Shown in pieces: positions 564 to 36,021 of a stretch of DNA of 43,351 nucleotides. The translations under genes and the position numbers were made by a program. Numbering within the stretch: position 1 is the first letter of the stretch; every line of letters starts with the position of its first letter. The notes beneath the pieces are model-generated. The model did no database searches. It saw only the letters and a program-made list of their open reading frames with translations, and had not been told where the DNA came from. Source of the DNA: Lentisphaeria bacterium (GTDB lineage: Bacteria; Verrucomicrobiota; Lentisphaeria; Victivallales; Victivallaceae); NCBI GenBank assembly GCA_017628235.1, contig JAGBZM010000022.1, positions 1-43,351 of the forward strand, written 5' to 3'.

Positions 564-1442
564 TTACCAATATATCATCTTGAATACATCCAATATCTGC
601 CGGTCACAGAAAATCCATATCCACGCCCCCAGGGTGATAAACGGTACAAACGGCAGCGAAGCATCCATCCGCCGTTTCACCGCCAAACCCCAGAGCGAAC
701 CGGCAACCGAACCGGTCAGCAGCGCAAAAAATGCTCCGGGCAATCCCAGCAGCATCCCGCACAATGCAACAAACTTCACATCTCCGTACCCGATCACCTC
801 CCGGGAACAGAACAACCGGCAAACTTCAGCAAACACCGCCAGCAGCACCGCCGGGATCACCCCCGAAGCCAGTGTGTTGAGCAAAGAATACCAACCATTG
901 GCCGCCATTTGCGTTTCCGGAAAAAAACACGCGGCAATCAACGCAAAAAACATTCCGGAATATGTCAATTTGTCCGGCACCACCCGGAAACGGATGTCTG
1001 TCATAGCACAGGATATGCCGAAAAAAATCATCAGTATCCGCGCCGGGATCACCCCGGGCAGCTGTTCCGTCAATCCGGTTTTCACCACCACCATCGCCGT
1101 CAGCAAACCGCAGATCAGTTCCACCCAGAAATAACTCGATGAGTAAGGCGTACGGCAGGCCCGGCAACGCCCGCGCAGAACCAGATAACTCAATACCGGA
1201 ATATTGTCAAACCAGCGGATCGGATTACCGCAGACAGTACAATGACTGGAGGCTTTGGAGAGCGATTCGCCCCGGGGTATCCGCCAGATACAGACATTGA
1301 GAAAACTGCCGATACACGCTCCGAATGCAAATATCCAGAATATCACAAAAATCCACACCCCCGGATACCCCAATCCCCAAACCGTAAACCAATCTTTCGG
1401 TGAATCAAAATACCAACGGGAAATATCCCACCCGATCATCAT
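564..1442 (-). CDS. Prepilin peptidase (type IV leader peptidase, A24 family)
   Basis: A 292-residue inner-membrane aspartyl protease that cleaves the short leader of type IV prepilins and pseudopilins and usually N-methylates the new N-terminus. The N-terminal domain has the GSFLNVCIWRIPRGES motif (about residues 45-59) and two zinc-type cysteine pairs (Cys68/Cys71 and Cys93/Cys96), as in bifunctional PilD enzymes. The catalytic aspartates are Asp149 (in TDIR) and Asp221 (in GYGDVK), both in their usual membrane context. The C-terminus has the family's PF-x-PF-x-x-LGA element. The start overlaps the aroE stop by four bases (ATGA), so translation is probably coupled. Its likely substrates include the pseudopilins at 30395-32725, whose residue before the cleavage site is Ser, Asn or Thr instead of Gly. 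It could serve a type IV pilus, a type II secretion system or both. Confidence 0.92.
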   Translation of the reverse strand: MMIGWDISRWYFDSPKDWFTVWGLGYPGVWIFVIFWIFAFGACIGSFLNVCIWRIPRGESLSKASSHCTVCGNPIRWFDNIPVLSYLVLRGRCRACRTPYSSSYFWVELICGLLTAMVVVKTGLTEQLPGVIPARILMIFFGISCAMTDIRFRVVPDKLTYSGMFFALIAACFFPETQMAANGWYSLLNTLASGVIPAVLLAVFAEVCRLFCSREVIGYGDVKFVALCGMLLGLPGAFFALLTGSVAGSLWGLAVKRRMDASLPFVPFITLGAWIWIFCDRQILDVFKMIYW

Positions 1443-26117: not shown

Positions 26118-26753
26118 TTAATTCAAGTCGGCATACTTAAAAAAGAGCAAAATAGGCGTATCCCGGTCACTTTGCAGAGTAAACGGCGAAACGGAAACCT
26201 CGTTGAGCGTACCGGAATACCACCAGGCAAGACGCAGATTTTTCAGCGGATACTTCAATCCGGTGGAACTCAAGGCCGCTCCGGGGTCAAACGAAAATAT
26301 TGACACCTGACTGCCCGGAGGTGCGGAAAAACTCCCCTGCCCGGAAAAGCTGCAGAAATATCCGGTTTCCGTATAAAGACGGCACTCCGGAAAAGCTGAA
26401 AAAAGTTCAGCGAATTGTCCGAGATTTCCCAGAAAGTGATCTTCCCGCGCTCCGGCTGCCCCGAGAATAGCGGAAACAGTAAAACCTTTTTCCCGGCAGA
26501 AACGGAAACTTTTGGCCAGATCGTTGGTCTCCTGCTCAAAAAATTTCACCGCCCGATCAGCAAAACGGCTGCGGGTTTCCGGCGAAACACTGTCCAGATC
26601 CCCAACTATCCAATCCGGTTCCCTACCGAAAGCCAGCAATTTATCTGCCGCACCGTCGCAGCAAACCACGCATTTGGCTTTTTCAAGCATTTCAAGCAAT
26701 TGCGGACGGCGGGGAAATTCGCCGTCCGCAAGGATGATGATTTCATCTGTCAT
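26118..26753 (-). CDS. thiN: Thiamine pyrophosphokinase
   Basis: A 211-residue enzyme transferring pyrophosphate from ATP to thiamine to make ThDP. The catalytic N-terminal domain has CDGAADKLLAFGREPDWIVGDLDS (split around residues 32-55), with DGAAD and GDLDS as metal/ATP motifs, then QETNDLAKSF (thiamine/ATP contact) and LGAAGAREDHFLGN. The C-terminal thiamine-binding beta-sandwich has a shorter but recognisable SIFSF region and STGLKYPL. It lies six bases after the giant cassette A protein on the same strand, so it is likely co-transcribed with the pseudopilin cassette. No TPP riboswitch is visible because there is no leader. Confidence 0.9.
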   Translation of the reverse strand: MTDEIIILADGEFPRRPQLLEMLEKAKCVVCCDGAADKLLAFGREPDWIVGDLDSVSPETRSRFADRAVKFFEQETNDLAKSFRFCREKGFTVSAILGAAGAREDHFLGNLGQFAELFSAFPECRLYTETGYFCSFSGQGSFSAPPGSQVSIFSFDPGAALSSTGLKYPLKNLRLAWWYSGTLNEVSVSPFTLQSDRDTPILLFFKYADLN

Positions 26754-26759
26754 GTTTTA

Positions 26760-29700
26760 TCAAAGATAGGTAATCCGGTTGATTACCATCCTCCCTTTAT
26801 CGTTGATATAAAGCCGGACAAACATTTTTACTTCTCCGGTGATCTCATCAAAGTAGATATTTTTACCCGGATCACTGTTATGTTCCAGATAATCGAATTT
26901 ACCGTACTTGCACTCCTTGGTGGCCACACCGTCATCATCGACAGTAATTCCGCTGCCGGCAGGGATCGTATAATCACCCTTATCATCCGGATCAAACAAC
27001 CGCACCTGCGTGCCTGCCACATCTTTGATACTCTGCGCTACGACCATCATATTGATGACCGAGGGGGTATTGGATGTGGCACAAATCAGATTGATCGTCT
27101 TGCCGATGATCTCCTCCTGGGCGGCATCAGTGGTTTGGGTATTTCCGATATCCGCATGGAAAGCATTTTCCAGAGAGTAAGTCGTGCCGTAATTCAGAAA
27201 ACCGAGTTTACCGCTATAGTTACTCTCTTTGGCACTGCCAGCAAAATTTGTTTTGATCGTTGTGATATGATCTGCATCTATCAAAGTCGAACCGGCGGTA
27301 TTTTCTGCGGGGAACTTACCATCACTCTGCCGGGTGGAATTGGCGATAAAAATTGCCGGATCTTCTCCGTAACGGATGTTGCGGAAAAGGGCAGCCAAAA
27401 TTTCCGGATCTCTTGCCGAATCATAATTCGGTGCCGCAGGACGGAGCAGATTGACATTTATTTTACCGTAAGTATGGATCTTCCCGGTCATTTTGATCTG
27501 TTCGAAAACAGCACCATCCCCCTGCAAATATGTACTTCCCTCTTTGTCCCAATTATCTTCATTGGAAGCAAAATCTTTATATCCGGCTGTTTTGATATTG
27601 ATGGTCTGCCACTTGACTCCGCGATGGATGAAACCGATCTCCCAGGGACTCATCATTGGCGCATTGCGGATGACGGCGGTGGAAATATGTTTGTCTTTGC
27701 CGCTGCCGGTATAGGCCGGTTCGGTGGCCAGCTCTTCATCGCAATCATTCCGCCCGGTATTTACACCAGCCGGATCAAACGGATTCTGCGAAGTGAAACT
27801 CATATTGCCGCTTTCTTTATTGACTTTGCCGGCTAGAGTTCCGGATTCATCAACCACATCCATCACCGCACCCCCCTTAACCTCCGTCGGATCAGCCGCA
27901 TTGACAACTGCGGCATACTTTGCATCAAACTCCCAATCGTCCGGATTAAGATTCTGCCGGGGGTCATAATTGCAGAAAGTTCCCAATGCGATCGCCATCG
28001 TCTTGTCTGTGCCGAATGTAAATGTTTGATCGACATTCCACTCCCGCGCAGCACTTCCGGCACCAGACAGTCTGACATAATCTATACCTATTCTGTCACC
28101 GGCAGCCGCACCGGACGGCAAATTCAATTTATTGGTCAATTTGGCACTCAGCACGGCTCTTTGCGGATTTGCCGAAACATGTGTTACCTTGATTTCATCA
28201 ACGATCACCGCTTCCACACCGGTGATCTTTTTGCTTCCCTCCTTGGCCGAAGCAAAATCAGTCGGCAAATTTCCGGAGTCAACTTTATCCAGAATATCAA
28301 CTCCTATTTTCAATTCAGCGATATCGGTATCTCCGGTAGAATTATATGTTTTCAGGGAAACTTTGCCGGACTCATTTTTCTGCCATTTATCTTTGGCAAA
28401 ACTGAATGGATAAGGCTTTGCGCCATCGGTATTTCCCAATTCATCACCGGGGAAGTCCACATACGCCTCACTTCCGGCAGTATGTGCCAACTCTCCATCA
28501 TTCAAAGATGCCGACAAAATTTGTCCTTTCAGAGCCGAAAGATCAGTCGCTCCGACAGTAGAAAAACTATTCAAAGTAATTTTCAATTCCCCGACAGTTC
28601 CCGTTTTCGTAACATCTTCCATCTCCGGATTGCCATCAGCATCGACAACTTTTTTTCCTGAGGCATCCGTTTTCTGTTCACTGACGTCATATTCAAATTT
28701 GATATTTTTCAATTTGATTACAGTAATTTCCATTCTGGCCGAAAGCGCACCGAAATCCACCATTGCCTGAACATCTGAATAGCCGCCATCACTTGCATCA
28801 AACGGATAGATGTTGGCCAATTTGACCATCGGTGCAATATTCAACAGAAAATTATTCCCATTGACCGGGGTGGTCAAAGTTCCATTCGCATCCGGGGAAA
28901 CGGTGTCATCCAACGTCAATTGCGCCTCTCCATCAGTTCCGGCCCCGGTGATTTTGAAAAGGGCACCGATTTCACAAAGATACGGTGTTTTTTCGTTGCC
29001 GGTAAAAGTCGGATGAGTGTAAGTCAATACCCCACCGGCATCAGCGACCGGAACATCAAGCCATTTTTTGGCCTCAACATCCGAAGTGGGTATGCCGTCG
29101 GCATCGCAGTAATCGTTGAAATTTGCCGCGATCTGTTTACGCAGAGTTCCCAAATCAGTGAATGTACCTTTATCATTTCCAATACGGCGCAGGACCGGCA
29201 AACCATTGGTATCGCCATCTTTTGCATATTCACCGTCATCGGTGATCCCGCCTTCATACAACAGACTGTCCTGAGTCAGCAGTTTGATGGATTCAAAACT
29301 GTTGACCTTACCGCTTTCGCCGGCGACAGTCGTATCGATCCCCAGCCGGGCGTACCATTGGTCGGCATTATTATCGACATCATACGCTTCGCGCCAACCA
29401 TTTTCTCCGGTATTGCCAGCATTCCAATCCGACGTGTTGTATTCACCCAATTCAGAAATATTGAACCGCAGCAGGGAATCCCCGCCGTCTGCATAGGTTT
29501 CCGCCGCGATCCGGGATGGATCAGCAACCGTTTTATTCTTTTCAAAATCCGGGATGAACCATTTTTCCACCCACCGCTGTGTTTCAGCGGTTCCGGGCGT
29601 TGAAGTCACATTATAGATATTCTGATAGTCCATCATCGTACTTGCGGTTGTCTGCAATTGAGTTGCAACATTGGTAAACAACACATGTGCCGGATTCCAG

Positions 29701-30398
29701 GCATCGGACACACCGGAAAAATCACCGAGAAAAACTTCATCGATCTCTCTGCCCCAACGGTTTTCTGACGGAACAAAAACATCACCGTCATTAGCAGCTT
29801 TATCCAGTGCCAGGTGTCCGCGCATAAAGACCGGAGCAAGCAGCTGCGCCGGAGAACCGATCACCTGCCACGCCGCCCGGCCGATCAGACGGCGGGAAGT
29901 TTCTCCCGAAGCCGGATCCTGTTTGCCATTGGTAAAGAAAACCCACCGCCCCGGCCAATCGTTGCAGAACTGCTGATTGAATCTCACCGCAGTACGGGCC
30001 GAAATCACCGAACTGTTTGCCGGAGCCTGGAGAACAGAATCTGCCCCTTTCAATGCATCATTATATTCGTTGGCCCCGCCGGCCGCAGCGTTACCGTCGT
30101 TGTCATAAGCCGCAAAACTGTAAATCCCGTCGAAGCTTTCCGGGAACTTTTTATTCGGATCACTTTTCGCATATTGATGAGCATAAATCATCAATGAACT
30201 TGCCGCCCGGCTCACCGCCGACAACGCAAACATCCGCGAACGCGAACGCGAACTGTTGTTTTCCGCGACCTGCCGGTAATTGACCGCATTGCCGACAAAT
30301 GCCATACCGATCATCAGCAGCAGTGCCAGCAAACCGATGGCAAAGACCAGAGCCATACCGCTTTCAGAATTTCTTTTTTGAGGAGTATATTTCATCAT
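26760..30398 (-). CDS. Verru_Chthon cassette A-like giant pseudopilin-associated protein
   Basis: A 1212-residue exported protein. The start MMKYTPQKRNSESGMALVFAIGLLALLLMIGMAF is a PilX/GspK-like N-terminus: a basic leader, a Gly-Met cleavage-like site at about 14-15, then a hydrophobic helix lacking the pilin Glu5. A helical N-region follows (RSRSRMFALSAVSRAASSLM). The remaining ~1100 residues are Asp/Asn/Gly/Thr-rich and look beta-structured and surface-like. It overlaps the stop of the cassette C gene by four bases and is preceded by B and D, the order reported for Verru_Chthon A-D cassettes in Verrucomicrobia. In GspK/PilX such proteins cap or prime the pilus tip. The size suggests an adhesive or secreted tip protein, which is inference. 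Confidence 0.75.
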   Translation of the reverse strand: MMKYTPQKRNSESGMALVFAIGLLALLLMIGMAFVGNAVNYRQVAENNSSRSRSRMFALSAVSRAASSLMIYAHQYAKSDPNKKFPESFDGIYSFAAYDNDGNAAAGGANEYNDALKGADSVLQAPANSSVISARTAVRFNQQFCNDWPGRWVFFTNGKQDPASGETSRRLIGRAAWQVIGSPAQLLAPVFMRGHLALDKAANDGDVFVPSENRWGREIDEVFLGDFSGVSDAWNPAHVLFTNVATQLQTTASTMMDYQNIYNVTSTPGTAETQRWVEKWFIPDFEKNKTVADPSRIAAETYADGGDSLLRFNISELGEYNTSDWNAGNTGENGWREAYDVDNNADQWYARLGIDTTVAGESGKVNSFESIKLLTQDSLLYEGGITDDGEYAKDGDTNGLPVLRRIGNDKGTFTDLGTLRKQIAANFNDYCDADGIPTSDVEAKKWLDVPVADAGGVLTYTHPTFTGNEKTPYLCEIGALFKITGAGTDGEAQLTLDDTVSPDANGTLTTPVNGNNFLLNIAPMVKLANIYPFDASDGGYSDVQAMVDFGALSARMEITVIKLKNIKFEYDVSEQKTDASGKKVVDADGNPEMEDVTKTGTVGELKITLNSFSTVGATDLSALKGQILSASLNDGELAHTAGSEAYVDFPGDELGNTDGAKPYPFSFAKDKWQKNESGKVSLKTYNSTGDTDIAELKIGVDILDKVDSGNLPTDFASAKEGSKKITGVEAVIVDEIKVTHVSANPQRAVLSAKLTNKLNLPSGAAAGDRIGIDYVRLSGAGSAAREWNVDQTFTFGTDKTMAIALGTFCNYDPRQNLNPDDWEFDAKYAAVVNAADPTEVKGGAVMDVVDESGTLAGKVNKESGNMSFTSQNPFDPAGVNTGRNDCDEELATEPAYTGSGKDKHISTAVIRNAPMMSPWEIGFIHRGVKWQTINIKTAGYKDFASNEDNWDKEGSTYLQGDGAVFEQIKMTGKIHTYGKINVNLLRPAAPNYDSARDPEILAALFRNIRYGEDPAIFIANSTRQSDGKFPAENTAGSTLIDADHITTIKTNFAGSAKESNYSGKLGFLNYGTTYSLENAFHADIGNTQTTDAAQEEIIGKTINLICATSNTPSVINMMVVAQSIKDVAGTQVRLFDPDDKGDYTIPAGSGITVDDDGVATKECKYGKFDYLEHNSDPGKNIYFDEITGEVKMFVRLYINDKGRMVINRITYL

Positions 30399-31261
30399 TC
30401 ACTTCCTTTCTTTCCCAGCAGTACTGCCCGGCGGAATGTATAACCATGTTCCAGAAAGATATCATTTTTTTTGCTTGAATCCGTTTCCTCTTTCCACTTC
30501 AGGAAGCTTTCCCGGCTGTCAAGCATTTTCAACTCGATCTCCACCAGATACGGTGCCGCATGAGCTGTACCGGTTTTCGGATCAGGATCCAAACGGTTTT
30601 TGCTGGCATCCCCCGGATCATCCGGATCTTCCAGAGCCACATAACGGGTGAACTTCAAATCGATCACATTTTCACAGATATCCACTGCCGCCGCCCGGGT
30701 TTTCGTGCCTTCGACCGTCGGATCATCCTTAAAATCAGCAGCATCAAACGCCTTGAACACCTCTTGCAAATGATCCACCGCCTGATCCACCGATTTTATC
30801 TTCCGGTTGCGCCGGGCAGTTTCATTGTAAGAGGGAAAAAGCTGACCGAAAAAGTTTTTGCTTTTCTCGTTCTGCCCGGTGTATTTTATCATCTGCAGAT
30901 TACCGGCATATTCCGATGACCCCTCCGGATCTACCAGCCGGAATTTGACAAAATGCCGATAGTGACCACCATCGCCCATTGCCACACTGCTGACAAACCA
31001 GATCGACTTTTCCGTGATTTCAAAAGGATACTGATTGGCATAGGAGCTGTCCTCAATATAGGTCAATGTCTGCATCCGGGAAGCCAGAAATTCCATCGCC
31101 GTCCGCGCGGAAGCAAAGGTATCGGTCTTCTGCTCACTGCGCAGCCACATCTGCTGCGCTCCGGAAAACAACCGCAGAGAGACCACCAGCAGTATACTGA
31201 ATACCGCCATCGCCGCCAGCAATTCAATCAGAGTGAATGTGTGTCTGCTGTATTTTTTCAC
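30395..31261 (-). CDS. Pseudopilin, PilW/GspJ-like (Verru_Chthon cassette C)
   Basis: A 288-residue type IV pilin-like protein. From the GTG at 31261 the leader reads MKKYSRHT, then FTLIELLAAMAVFSILLVVSLRLFSG, with Glu at the fifth position of the mature form. The residue before the cleavage site is Thr, not the usual Gly. The C-terminal domain begins FASARTAMEFLASRMQT, matching PilW/GspJ-like proteins. I chose GTG 31261 because an AGGGGGG run lies just before it and the leader has the normal short length; the frame is open to ATG 31279. The four-base overlap with the giant A gene and the nearby B gene show one operon. The partner proteins and a promoter at 32763-32791 support a pseudopilus-assembly role. 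Confidence 0.82.
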   Translation of the reverse strand: MKKYSRHTFTLIELLAAMAVFSILLVVSLRLFSGAQQMWLRSEQKTDTFASARTAMEFLASRMQTLTYIEDSSYANQYPFEITEKSIWFVSSVAMGDGGHYRHFVKFRLVDPEGSSEYAGNLQMIKYTGQNEKSKNFFGQLFPSYNETARRNRKIKSVDQAVDHLQEVFKAFDAADFKDDPTVEGTKTRAAAVDICENVIDLKFTRYVALEDPDDPGDASKNRLDPDPKTGTAHAAPYLVEIELKMLDSRESFLKWKEETDSSKKNDIFLEHGYTFRRAVLLGKKGSE

Positions 31262-31275
31262 GGTCGCCCCCCTCA

Positions 31276-31950
31276 TCATATTTTCAATTCAAAACGTTCA
31301 TTGTAGATCTCAAACCGGAAGTAGGATTTTTCCCGTTCCGCATACGGCAAATCGGCCGGATAACTTATTTCCATAACCAGCGGCAGAATAAAATTTTCAA
31401 ACTCCAATTTTCTCACATTCCCGGGATCGCTGCCGGAACTGCCCTTGTCTGAAAGCGAATTATAATTTTCTTCCTCTCCCCACCTGATCGGCACAAAGAG
31501 TTCTTTTCCGAAATCACTGCCATCCTCTTTGTACACCGCGACAACCGCAGAAAAGTCCACATAATGATTCCCTTTAGGCCCGGAAACCTGCCGGACCATA
31601 TAGAGCCCATTCGAATCTTTGTGCAATGTCCAGGGATCATCCCCATCCAAACCGTTATCCCAGCTGGTTGTCGGATCTTTGATCTCATTGCTTGTATTTT
31701 CCAGTTCTGAGCGCAACGGAAAACTTGCCAGCACATCGGACCGGAAACCATCGGTATAAACTGACAAGGCACTTTCAGCCCGGATCTTGGAAAAGACCAG
31801 TTCCGCCAGATCAGCGATGCTGTTTTCCGCCATCGCGCTGCGGTGATTGCTCAAACCCGCCGGAAAAAGCACAAAGACACTGGCCATGCCGACCGACAGA
31901 ATGACCACCGCCAGCATGATCTCAACCATATTGAAACGGAATTTTTTCAT
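31276..31950 (-). CDS. Pseudopilin, PilV/GspI-like (Verru_Chthon cassette B)
   Basis: A 224-residue pseudopilin. From ATG 31950 it reads MKKFRFN followed by MVEIMLAVVILSVGMASVFVLFPAGLSN, a PilV/GspI-like N-terminus with M at the first mature position and E at the third, or fifth if cleaved two residues earlier. The residue before the cleavage is Asn, again not Gly. HRSAMAENSIADLAELVFSKIRAES is the helical continuation common to this group. ATG 31950 is one base after the stop of cassette D, and the frame upstream is only the tail of D. Its end overlaps the longer reading of cassette C; with GTG 31261 the genes are 14 bases apart. It likely forms part of the tip complex with C, D and A. Confidence 0.8.
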   Translation of the reverse strand: MKKFRFNMVEIMLAVVILSVGMASVFVLFPAGLSNHRSAMAENSIADLAELVFSKIRAESALSVYTDGFRSDVLASFPLRSELENTSNEIKDPTTSWDNGLDGDDPWTLHKDSNGLYMVRQVSGPKGNHYVDFSAVVAVYKEDGSDFGKELFVPIRWGEEENYNSLSDKGSSGSDPGNVRKLEFENFILPLVMEISYPADLPYAEREKSYFRFEIYNERFELKI

Positions 31951-31951
31951 C

Positions 31952-32725
31952 TTATTCACCGCCGCTTCCTCCTGTATTATCCGCTTCGCCATCCTCCATC
32001 GGCAGATAAGAGACCTTGCCGGTAATGGGGTTGAGCTTCAGCACCACAAAGTTATCCTCATTGGCATATTCATACTGACCGTCATTTATTCTTGCTTCGG
32101 TAAAAAACAGCAGCATCGGCGTGTCGCTGTTGGAAAAACCGCCGAAAGGAGAAAAAATGATCCCCCGCCAGTTATCACACTCTCCTTCTGCATTTGCGGT
32201 TCCCAAAGCCTTAATGTCAGCATCTTTGGAGTCTTTGGCATAAATAACATCCAAACATTCGTAACCGGCAACGGCTTTGGTCGTGGCGGTTTCGATCCCG
32301 GCCTTTGAAAGCGGCATGAATTTTCCGGAAGTTTCATCCTGCCAGTTTTTATGTCTCGCACAAGCCGCCAGCATCGCACCATCCGGCATATTGCTCCACA
32401 CCGAACCGGGAACCCAACTGATAAATGTACCGTCTTTTTTGACATAAGCCAAACGGTAACCGCCATTAACAAAACTTTGCAGGTTGTCTGCCGTGATCTC
32501 ATCGTAATTCGTCGGCATGATCATCGCCACATATTTGCGCGAAGATATCGCTTTAGCCTGCGCCACCTCCATGCCGGTTTTGAAATTTGAAGCCATCTGA
32601 TCGACCTTGTTGCCGGACATCAAACGGCTGAATGCCGGAGCAAAAATACCGATCAAAAGAGCCGTAATACCGATCACAGCGAGCAATTCGATCAATGTAA
32701 AGGAGTTTTTCCTGTATTTTTTCAT
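31952..32725 (-). CDS. Pseudopilin, GspH/FimT-like (Verru_Chthon cassette D)
   Basis: A 257-residue pseudopilin. From ATG 32725 it begins MKKYRKNS then FTLIELLAVIGITALLIGIFAPAFSRLMSG, with Ser before the cleavage and Glu at mature position five. The next helix (MASNFKTGMEVAQAKAISSRKYVAMIM) is typical of GspH/FimT. ATG 32725 is preferred over the open frame to 32836 for three reasons: it has a GGGAGG site before it, it gives a normal leader, and the predicted promoter at 32763-32791 would put transcription start near 32756, downstream of the longer start. It is the first gene of the D-B-C-A-thiN series. The C-terminal domain is larger than usual for GspH and may carry a surface fold. Confidence 0.83.
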   Translation of the reverse strand: MKKYRKNSFTLIELLAVIGITALLIGIFAPAFSRLMSGNKVDQMASNFKTGMEVAQAKAISSRKYVAMIMPTNYDEITADNLQSFVNGGYRLAYVKKDGTFISWVPGSVWSNMPDGAMLAACARHKNWQDETSGKFMPLSKAGIETATTKAVAGYECLDVIYAKDSKDADIKALGTANAEGECDNWRGIIFSPFGGFSNSDTPMLLFFTEARINDGQYEYANEDNFVVLKLNPITGKVSYLPMEDGEADNTGGSGGE

Positions 32726-32791: not shown

Positions 32792-32983
32792 CAGGAAATC
32801 CCCCTGAATCCCCAAAAAAAAACAGATTTTTTTCATATTTCCTCCGATTCATTCCTGTTTCAAGCGGTAAACCCCGGAAAGAGTTTGACAATAAAATCAT
32901 GGCGGCAACTTGTAATTTGGCAAATTGCGGTGTAATTTATAGTTGACAGCATAAGTAATTAATATATTGGAGAAATTCTGACA

Positions 32984-33949
32984 ATGAAACGGGTTCTCGT
33001 CACCGGCGGCAGCGGCTTTCTCGGCAGTTGGCTGTGCGAAAAGATTCTGGAAAAAGGCTGCGAAGTCATCTGTGTGGATAATTTTTTCACCGGGGCAAAA
33101 CGCAACATCTATCACCTGCTGGACAATCCGAAATTTGAATTGATCCGGCACGATGTCACCTTTCCCCTCTACATCGAATGCGATGAGATCTATAACCTCG
33201 CCTGCCCCGCCAGCCCCATCCATTATCAGCACGACCCGGTGCAGACGGTGAAAACCTGTGTTCACGGCGCAATCAATATGCTGGGCCTGGCCAAAAGACT
33301 CAACGCCAAAATACTGCAGGCTTCGACCAGTGAAGTTTACGGTGATCCGGCGATCCACCCGCAGGTCGAAGAATATTGGGGCAATGTCAATCCCATCGGT
33401 ATACGTTCATGCTATGATGAGGGCAAACGCTGTGCGGAAACGCTTTTCAACTGTTACCGTATGCAAAATTCCCTGCGGACGAAAATCATCCGGATCTTCA
33501 ATACCTATGGACCGCGTATGCATCCCCATGACGGACGGGTAGTCAGCAATTTCATCCTGCAGGCCCTGCAGAATAAGGACATCACCATCTACGGTGACGG
33601 TTCGCAGACCCGCAGTTTCTGTTACCGGGATGACCTGATCGACGGCATGATCAAGTTGATGGCCACTCCGGATGAGGTGACCGGGCCGGTCAATGTCGGC
33701 AATCCGGGAGAATTCACCATTCTGCAGCTGGCGGAAAATGTGATCGACTTGACCGGTTCCAACTCCAAAATCATCCGGATGCCCCTGCCGGCCGATGATC
33801 CCAAACAGCGTAAACCGGATATTTCCAAAGCTCAAAAGCTGCTCAACTGGCAGCCGACGACCCCGTTGCGCGAAGGTTTGCTCAAAACGATCGCCTACTT
33901 TGATGAATTACTTAAAACTGAACCGGAATTCTGCCGGGGAGAGGAATAA
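32984..33949 (+). CDS. UDP-glucuronate decarboxylase (UDP-xylose synthase, UXS)
   Basis: A 321-residue extended SDR. The NAD motif is GGSGFLGSW at the N-terminus, followed by [31 protein letters not shown] is the hallmark of UXS/UDP-glucuronate decarboxylases. The catalytic Y-x3-K is in [13 protein letters not shown], and [21 protein letters not shown] is also conserved. It makes UDP-xylose from UDP-glucuronate in the cytosol. It opens a run with RfbB (five bases later) and a WbpP-like epimerase. Several weak promoter-like elements lie in the 258-base gap upstream, including TTGACA at 32943-32948 with a TATATT only 14 bases beyond; none is compelling. An ATTGGAGAAA site may be the ribosome-binding site. 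Confidence 0.88.
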
Positions 33950-33954
33950 TTGCC

Positions 33955-35016
33955 ATGAAACGGATCATCGTTACCGGCGGAGCCGGTTTTATCGGTTCAG
34001 CTCTGGTCAGATATATCATCGATCATACCGGCGATGAAGTGTGCGTCCTCGACAAACTCACCTACGCCGGTAATCCGGAAAATCTGGCGGCAGTATCCGC
34101 TTCCCCCCGATTCCGGTTTGAACAGGCAGATATTTGCAACGTTGAAGCGGTGAACCGGATCTTTTCCTCGTTCCGGCCGACTAATGTCATGCATCTTGCC
34201 GCCGAAAGCCATGTGGACCGTTCCATCGACGGCCCGCAGGAATTCATCATGACCAATGTGGTCGGCACCGGCATCATGCTGGAAAGTGCGCGCCGGTATT
34301 ATTCGTCCCTGACGGATGCGGAGAAACAGAATTTCCGTTTTCACCATATTTCCACTGATGAAGTTTACGGAGCATTAGGCAAAGAGGGACTTTTCCATGA
34401 AACCACACCCTATGATCCATCGTCCCCCTACTCTGCCAGCAAAGCTTCGGCAGATCATCTTGTGCGGGCGTGGGGCAGAACATTCAAGTTGCCGGTGCTG
34501 GTTACCAACTGTTCCAATAATTACGGCCCTTACCACTTCCCGGAAAAGCTGATCCCGCTGATGATCCTCCATGCCCTGTCCGGAATGGAATTGCCCATTT
34601 ACGGCAAAGGCGATCAAATCCGCGACTGGCTCTATGTGGATGATCACGCCCGCGCGCTCTATCTGGTTTCCGACCGGGGAAAACCGGGAGAAACTTACAA
34701 TATCGGCGGCAACAGTGAAAAGACCAATCTGGAAGTCGTCCATACGATCTGTTCGCTGCTTGACCGGTATTCGCCCCGGCCGGACGGCAAAAGTTACGCC
34801 TGCCAGATCGTCCATGTCACCGACCGCCCCGGACACGATGCGCGTTATGCCATCGATGCCTCGAAAATTGCCGGAGAATTGGGTTGGAAACCGCTGGAAT
34901 CTTTTGAAAGCGGCATAGAAAAAACTGTCAGATGGTATCTGGAAAACAAAGATTCATGGTGCGCCAGAGTGCTTAACGGTGAATACCGGATGGAACGTCT
35001 GGGCAGCGGAAAGTAA
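33955..35016 (+). CDS. rfbB: dTDP-glucose 4,6-dehydratase
   Basis: A 353-residue SDR making dTDP-4-keto-6-deoxyglucose, the first committed step toward dTDP-rhamnose and other deoxysugars. The NAD motif is [15 protein letters not shown], followed by [12 protein letters not shown]. The dehydratase triad region is [12 protein letters not shown] with the catalytic Asp-Glu pair and [15 protein letters not shown] (Y-x3-K). [20 protein letters not shown] and [18 protein letters not shown] are strongly diagnostic of RfbB. It follows the UXS gene by five bases and precedes the WbpP-like epimerase by 12. The partner enzymes RfbA, RfbC and RfbD are not in the window, so the final sugar is unknown. Confidence 0.94.
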
Positions 35017-35028
35017 CGGTTTTGAAAT

Positions 35029-36021
35029 ATGTTTGAATCTCTGAAAAACAGCCGGATCGTGATTACCGGCGGAGCCGGTTTCATCGGTTCCAATCTGACC
35101 GGAGCCCTGCTGGACCTCGGATGCGAAGTGGTGGTACTGGACAACTTTGCCACCGGCAAGCGGGAAAATCTGGAACCTTTTGCTTTGAAACGCAATTTCA
35201 CCCTGCTTGAGGGAGATATCCGTAATCAGGAGGATTGTCTGCGGGCAGTTGCCGGGGCAGACTTCGTTCTCCATGAAGCGGCTCTGGGCAGCGTACCGCG
35301 CTCGATCAAGGCCCCCGGCACCTCCGCAGATGTCAATATCGGCGGCTTTGTAAATATGCTGCATGCCGCAAGTAAAGCCGGAGTAAAACGTTTTGTGTAT
35401 GCATCAAGCAGTTCTGTTTACGGAGATTGCCAGGATTCCCCCAAAGTGGAAAGCCGTACCGGAACTCCATTGTCGCCTTACGCTTTAACCAAAAGTGTCA
35501 ATGAACAGTTTGCCGCCAATTTCCATGCGGTTTACGGGATCGACTGCATCGGTTTGCGCTACTTCAATGTCTTCGGCCGCCGTCAGGCCCCGGAGGGCGC
35601 ATATGCAGCGGTCATTCCCAAATTTTCGGCGGCATTGCTTGCTCACCATTCACCGGTCATCAACGGGGACGGCTCATTCAGCCGGGATTTCACCTTTGTC
35701 GATGATGTGGTACAAGCCAATATCCTTGCGCTGACCGCCGGAGAACCGGCCTGCAACACGGTTTTCAATATCGCTGGCGGGCAGGAAACAACTTTGAATG
35801 AATTATTCGCTTTTCTCCGGGAAGAACTCTCCGTCTTTGACGGGGAAATCAGCGGCATTTCCCCGGTCCATGCTCCGGAACGGGCCGGTGATATCCCGCA
35901 CAGTCTGGCTGATATCAGCAAGGCCCGCACTCTTCTGGGATATATTCCGCGCTTCAATGTCCGCAGCGGACTGAAACTGACCGCGCAGTGGTATTTTGAA
36001 CATCTTTCCGGCCGGAAGTGA
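35029..36021 (+). CDS. UDP-N-acetylglucosamine 4-epimerase-like SDR (WbpP/TviC type)
   Basis: A 330-residue extended SDR, close to WbpP (about 341). The NAD motif is [15 protein letters not shown], and VLDNFATGKRENL follows. HEAALGSVPRSIKAP, FVYASSSSVYGDCQDSPKVE and SPYALTKSVNEQFAANF (Tyr and Lys of the catalytic Y-x3-K) match WbpP/TviC-type C4 epimerases. GLRYFNVFGRRQAPEGAYAAVIPKF is also typical. It probably interconverts UDP-GlcNAc/GalNAc or their uronic acids. It closes the three-gene nucleotide-sugar run and meets folK tail to tail with a gap of only three bases, so no separate terminator lies between them. Confidence 0.83.
   Translation: MFESLKNSRIVITGGAGFIGSNLTGALLDLGCEVVVLDNFATGKRENLEPFALKRNFTLLEGDIRNQEDCLRAVAGADFVLHEAALGSVPRSIKAPGTSADVNIGGFVNMLHAASKAGVKRFVYASSSSVYGDCQDSPKVESRTGTPLSPYALTKSVNEQFAANFHAVYGIDCIGLRYFNVFGRRQAPEGAYAAVIPKFSAALLAHHSPVINGDGSFSRDFTFVDDVVQANILALTAGEPACNTVFNIAGGQETTLNELFAFLREELSVFDGEISGISPVHAPERAGDIPHSLADISKARTLLGYIPRFNVRSGLKLTAQWYFEHLSGRK

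Follow-up and report, generated by a model that had tools for sequence, protein, structure and literature searches.

The D-B-C-A cassette

The window is the whole stretch of DNA analysed here, 43,351 nucleotides from a Lentisphaeria bacterium (contig JAGBZM010000022.1 of assembly GCA_017628235.1, which is 1.46 Mb long and 54% complete). The source is a gut bacterium related to Victivallis, and its nearest named relatives are Lentisphaeria metagenome-assembled genomes, several of them from the ruminant gut. Reading of the open frames places four genes on the minus strand, from 32725 to 26760 in the order D-B-C-A, in one apparent transcription unit; ATGA overlaps join B to C and C to A, and D and B are separated by one base. 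The features concerned are as follows, with a slash at the predicted leader cleavage site.

31952..32725, minus strand: D, GspH/FimU-like minor pilin, 257 residues; leader KKYRKNS/FTLIELLAVIG; GGGAGG ribosome site upstream
31276..31950, minus strand: B, GspI/PilV-like minor pilin, 224 residues; leader MKKFR/FNMVEIMLAVV; lies between D and C in relatives
30395..31279, minus strand: C, GspJ/PilW-like minor pilin, 294 residues; leader VKKYSRHT/FTLIELLAAM
26760..30398, minus strand: A, enlarged GspK/PilX-like pilin, putatively of the tip, 1212 residues; leader RNSESG/MALVFAIG, no Glu5
26118..26753, minus strand: thiamine diphosphokinase gene, 6 bp past A; TIGR01378 at 123.8 bits, above cut-off
564..1442, minus strand: prepilin peptidase; PF01478 at 53.8 bits over 684-1034

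The leaders of B, C and D are of class III and carry Glu5 (FTLIELL or FNMVEIML), and that of A has glycine at position -1 and no Glu5 (ESG/MALVFAIG). The first-pass annotation had described four minus-strand genes with pilin leaders at 26760-32725, a description borne out by the frames, the leaders and their conservation; profile matches likewise agree with the GspH-, GspI/PilV-, PilW/GspJ- and GspK/PilX-like identities that it gave to D, B, C and A. A longer frame for D, starting at 32836, was rejected, its sole support being the open frame itself, whereas the start at 32725 has the ribosome site upstream.

The thiamine diphosphokinase gene keeps its place beside A in close relatives; it is probably co-transcribed with the cassette but lies outside the pilus proper. 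The prepilin peptidase at the other end of the window is the sole match of its kind in the (incomplete) source genome and would process the cassette proteins. It adjoins aroE, and in the same-genus genome G088 a similar pair comes after the PilB genes. Just upstream of the cassette, and divergent from it, lie three successive plus-strand genes for sugar-nucleotide dehydratases/epimerases (32984-36021), the first of which is also close to the cassette at one other locus (L032).

Conservation in the Victivallales

A profile search with A finds relatives in 59 of 61 high-quality Victivallales genomes. Across the phylum the profile matches in 147 of 289 genomes, outside the class mostly through the N-terminal part. 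The D-B-C-A order is kept in the genus and the family, and one other family has B-C-A with D downstream. With A so widespread and the same gene order in genus and family, chance or artefact is ruled out as the origin of the cassette. Genomes of the genus have one cassette each; in some other genera the number is two or more. Among named organisms, Victivallis vadensis DSM 14823 has a relative of A (L123) as well as D and C (L043).

The leader of A is constant, with Gly-1 and no Glu5 in all 60 A proteins that have a readable leader. Among the Glu5-bearing prepilins of Victivallales loci, 7 of 187 have Gly-1, the rest carrying mostly R, S, N, H or K at this position; at Verrucomicrobiae loci, all 21 Glu5-bearing prepilins have Gly or Ala there. 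The Victivallales prepilin peptidase may need Gly-1 only where Glu5 is absent.

Protein A is an enlarged GspK

The first-pass annotation considered A far larger than any normal GspK or PilX. It is indeed far above the 327 residues of Escherichia coli GspK, but its size is not anomalous, since the Verru_Chthon model TIGR02600 has 1296 positions (its aligned members measure 1209-1736 residues) and the Victivallales family of A ranges from 843 to 1246 residues, with a median of about 1060 (59 aligned sequences, the window protein included).

The N-terminal helix is common to all pilins, and was for this reason cut out before comparison with GspK. The remaining A profile scores 30.3 against GspK, where the best of 60 column shuffles reaches 19.4; for class-level relatives of A, also with the helix removed, the score is 46.9 against a shuffle best of 22.9. 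The matching blocks are collinear, with residues 173-196, 426-486 and 966-1018 of A corresponding to about 87-105, 134-180 and 199-231 of E. coli GspK. The Pfam T2SSK model matches above its curated cut-off, and at the corresponding position, in three class-level members of the A family (L260, L261 and L262); as PF03934 also matches unrelated HhH proteins, only matches within A-family frames were counted. The window's A protein itself has no T2SSK match, and the GspK model NF037980 matches it weakly, on the N-terminal helix. Together, the score above the shuffles, the collinear blocks and the T2SSK matches in relatives indicate that A is homologous to GspK and carries an insertion of about 480 residues between two of the shared blocks.

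An AlphaFold model of A (pLDDT 80.6, pTM 0.79) has a 64-residue N-terminal helix (residues 2-65) and, as expected of a pilin core, C-terminal strands. Between two of the GspK-matching blocks, the model predicts a further feature:

27921..29066, minus strand: inserted part of A, roughly mature residues 431-812; predicted to be rich in beta strands and Ig/FnIII-like

In the model the beta-rich region spans about residues 455-800. Its best structural matches among those listed are Ig-like domains of GH2 enzymes, at a weak Z of 5.5, which gives a hint of a beta-sandwich and no more. Structure searches with whole A and with its C-terminal 399 residues are dominated by the insertion, and neither GspK nor a type IV pilin is among the matches listed. 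Alpha-hemolysin and arrestin also came up as structural matches and were rejected as noise (query-normalised TM-score near 0.05). A sequence search of the PDB with the A profile returns noise only, the best match being USP15 at E 0.19.

Relation to type II secretion

The D-B-C-A cassette corresponds to the H-I-J-K part of the E. coli gspG-H-I-J-K genes, and the matches fit each position. The likeness takes in the gene order, the leaders, a K subunit without Glu5, the collinear GspK blocks and the T2SSK matches in relatives of A. Such a set could be a second, interchangeable complement of type II minor pseudopilins, with A selecting large substrates or presenting them. The type II operon is a near neighbour of the cassette in four genomes of the genus (G096, G104, G108 and G092; loci L139, L142, L185 and L103), and cassette and type II system occur together in 49 of the 61 high-quality genomes; A is absent from two genomes that have type II.

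Against this, the type II locus of the source genome stands apart (contigs C17 and C64), with GspD, GspE and GspF and with minor pseudopilins of its own: a GspH-like and a GspJ-like gene, a prepilin-like gene between them and a GspK-like protein of 332 residues. The same locus is present in the close relative G099, where GspG scores above cut-off. Moreover, all ten high-quality Victivallales genomes without a type II GspD (no such GspD at E 1e-30) have retained A. They include three of the same genus (G088, G117 and G118), and in G088 and G118 the PilB pair and two PilT-like ATPases are all that is left, with no further assembly ATPase. The cassette further differs from GspH-I-J-K in its 1212-residue A, with the large insertion, and in forming no operon with GspC-GspM genes. 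An ordinary type II set with a normal GspK, raised by the first-pass annotation as the alternative to its own proposal, is ruled out by the separate type II set of the same genome and by the persistence of the cassette where GspD is lacking, and the second, interchangeable set is unlikely on the same grounds.

Relation to the Verru_Chthon cassettes

The first-pass annotation had likened the four genes to the Verru_Chthon A-D cassette of Verrucomicrobia. When the defining models are run, all four proteins fall under the cut-offs. A scores 13.4 bits against TIGR02600 (cut-off 332.3), over the N-terminal 54 positions only. B scores 16.5 bits against TIGR02598 (cut-off 51.4) and 22.6 bits against the PilV model TIGR02523. 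For C and D the best NCBIfam matches are nonetheless Verru_Chthon models: 42.6 bits for C against TIGR02599 (cut-off 256.5), compared with 19.6 for GspJ, and 38.8 bits for D against TIGR02596 (cut-off 70), compared with 33.5 for ComGD and 22.7 for GspH. Nor does the gene order match as had been claimed. In authenticated Verrucomicrobiae cassettes, defined as those with B, C and D above the model cut-offs, the order is A-B-C-D (L211) or B-C-A-D (L209 and L210). By the defining models, the window set is not a Verru_Chthon cassette.

The two types nevertheless have much in common: four pseudopilin genes, a very large A without Glu5, and a B-C-A core order that the window shares with L209 and L210. 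This shared core and the best matches of C and D make the two cassette types cousins. The similarity of A to TIGR02600-type proteins is weak past the first ~70 residues, and best in the stretch after the helix. In four authenticated Verru_Chthon loci (L211, L213, L214 and L215) a gene for a protein of 2.4-2.9 thousand residues stands directly upstream of A, and a surface substrate of these cassettes is a possible role for it. The literature searched contained no paper that deals with Verru_Chthon cassettes or with the four cassette proteins described here.

The kinship of A, C and D with these proteins, the giant upstream genes and the apparently multi-copy state of Verrucomicrobiae cassettes (38 first-look candidates in genome G298, of which only two were scored) suggest another role, that of a dedicated short pseudopilus in the Verru_Chthon sense, which would borrow shared ATPases and export or anchor a specific surface protein; this is the least likely of the readings weighed here, since the window cassette is single-copy in its genus, has no giant partner gene upstream or alongside, differs in gene order and shows the degree of conservation that a core part of a pilus should have.

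The type IV pilus machine of the order

Components of a type IV pilus machine are present in the order. A PilB-like ATPase occurs in 61 of 61 high-quality Victivallales genomes; PilB being universal, its co-occurrence with A has no statistical weight. PilC is present in the source genome and PilT in G099. Secretins of the Amuc_1098 type are found in G099 and G088, and G099 also has Amuc_1099- and Amuc_1100-like partners. A PilQ of the Amuc_1098 type was localised to the outer membrane in Akkermansia, with conservation in L. araneosa also reported (PMC4960237). Tandem ATPase genes of the PilB/GspE type lie in the type IV pilus locus (G099 C27, G000 C59 and G088 C36), where they precede PilC in the source genome (G000) and in G099; such tandems occur in many genomes of the order.

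At the loci examined, the cassette forms no operon with core genes of the type IV pilus, although at class level one locus has PilC 1.3 kb from A, and at another the distance to an Amuc_1098-like fragment is 5.6 kb. The resemblance to the Akkermansia Amuc_1098-1100 pilus lies in the secretin and its partners, and the cassette is tied to that pilus by co-occurrence only. In the literature searched, no such cassette is connected with the Akkermansia cluster.

A stand-alone minor pilin operon whose machine is encoded elsewhere has a precedent in FimU-PilV-PilW-PilX (with PilY1) of type IVa pili, where PilX likewise lacks Glu5. PilX is a small protein with no GspK insertion (PMC7248040); A, by contrast, resembles GspK and is greatly enlarged. 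A second difference concerns PilY1 (PF05567): none is recognisable in the 68 Victivallales genomes searched, and the same search finds it in 2 of 289 genomes of the phylum.

A proposed priming and tip complex

In the preferred reading a type IV filament has D, B, C and A as its four minor pilins, and prepilin peptidase would cut their leaders. The structure of GspI-J-K and the Myxococcus priming complex serve as models for the mechanism (PMC7248040, PMC7541494). A staggered D-B-C-A complex would assemble in the inner membrane, prime the growth of the filament and then remain at its tip, with A as the capping subunit on top. PilX and GspK also lack Glu5 (PMC7541494), and because A lacks it, no further subunit could be added above A. 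The first-pass annotation, which suggested an appendage or pseudopilus bearing a giant protein at its tip, is in this respect judged right, the tip position of A being predicted.

Taken alone, the reading as a priming and tip complex of minor pilins is very probable. The machine would most probably be the type IV pilus of the order, comprising the PilB pair, PilC, PilT and the Amuc_1098/1099/1100-like proteins. The full reading, in which the cassette primes and tips this Amuc_1098-type pilus and A acts as an integral tip protein, seems the best account, if with distinctly less assurance than the tip complex alone.

At the top of such a filament, no part would be more exposed than the large insertion of A, and the tip function held elsewhere by PilY1 would fall to A in its enlarged form. 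More tentatively, the adhesin of the pilus tip may in Lentisphaeria be part of the capping pilin itself, with PilY1 replaced on the Amuc_1098-type pilus by a GspK-type subunit whose Ig-like insertion measures several hundred residues. In the literature searched, nothing of this kind is described.

Significance

Within the minor pilin operons, the cassette represents an uncharacterised Lentisphaeria branch whose GspK is enlarged. The GspH-I-J-K scheme, with A as the enlarged GspK, gives a named and testable role to a cassette found in nearly all genomes of the Victivallales, an order with members in animal guts and in the environment. Should the assignment to the machine hold, the cassette provides the tip so far missing from the Amuc_1098/1100-type pilus, a subject of host-interaction studies in Akkermansia.
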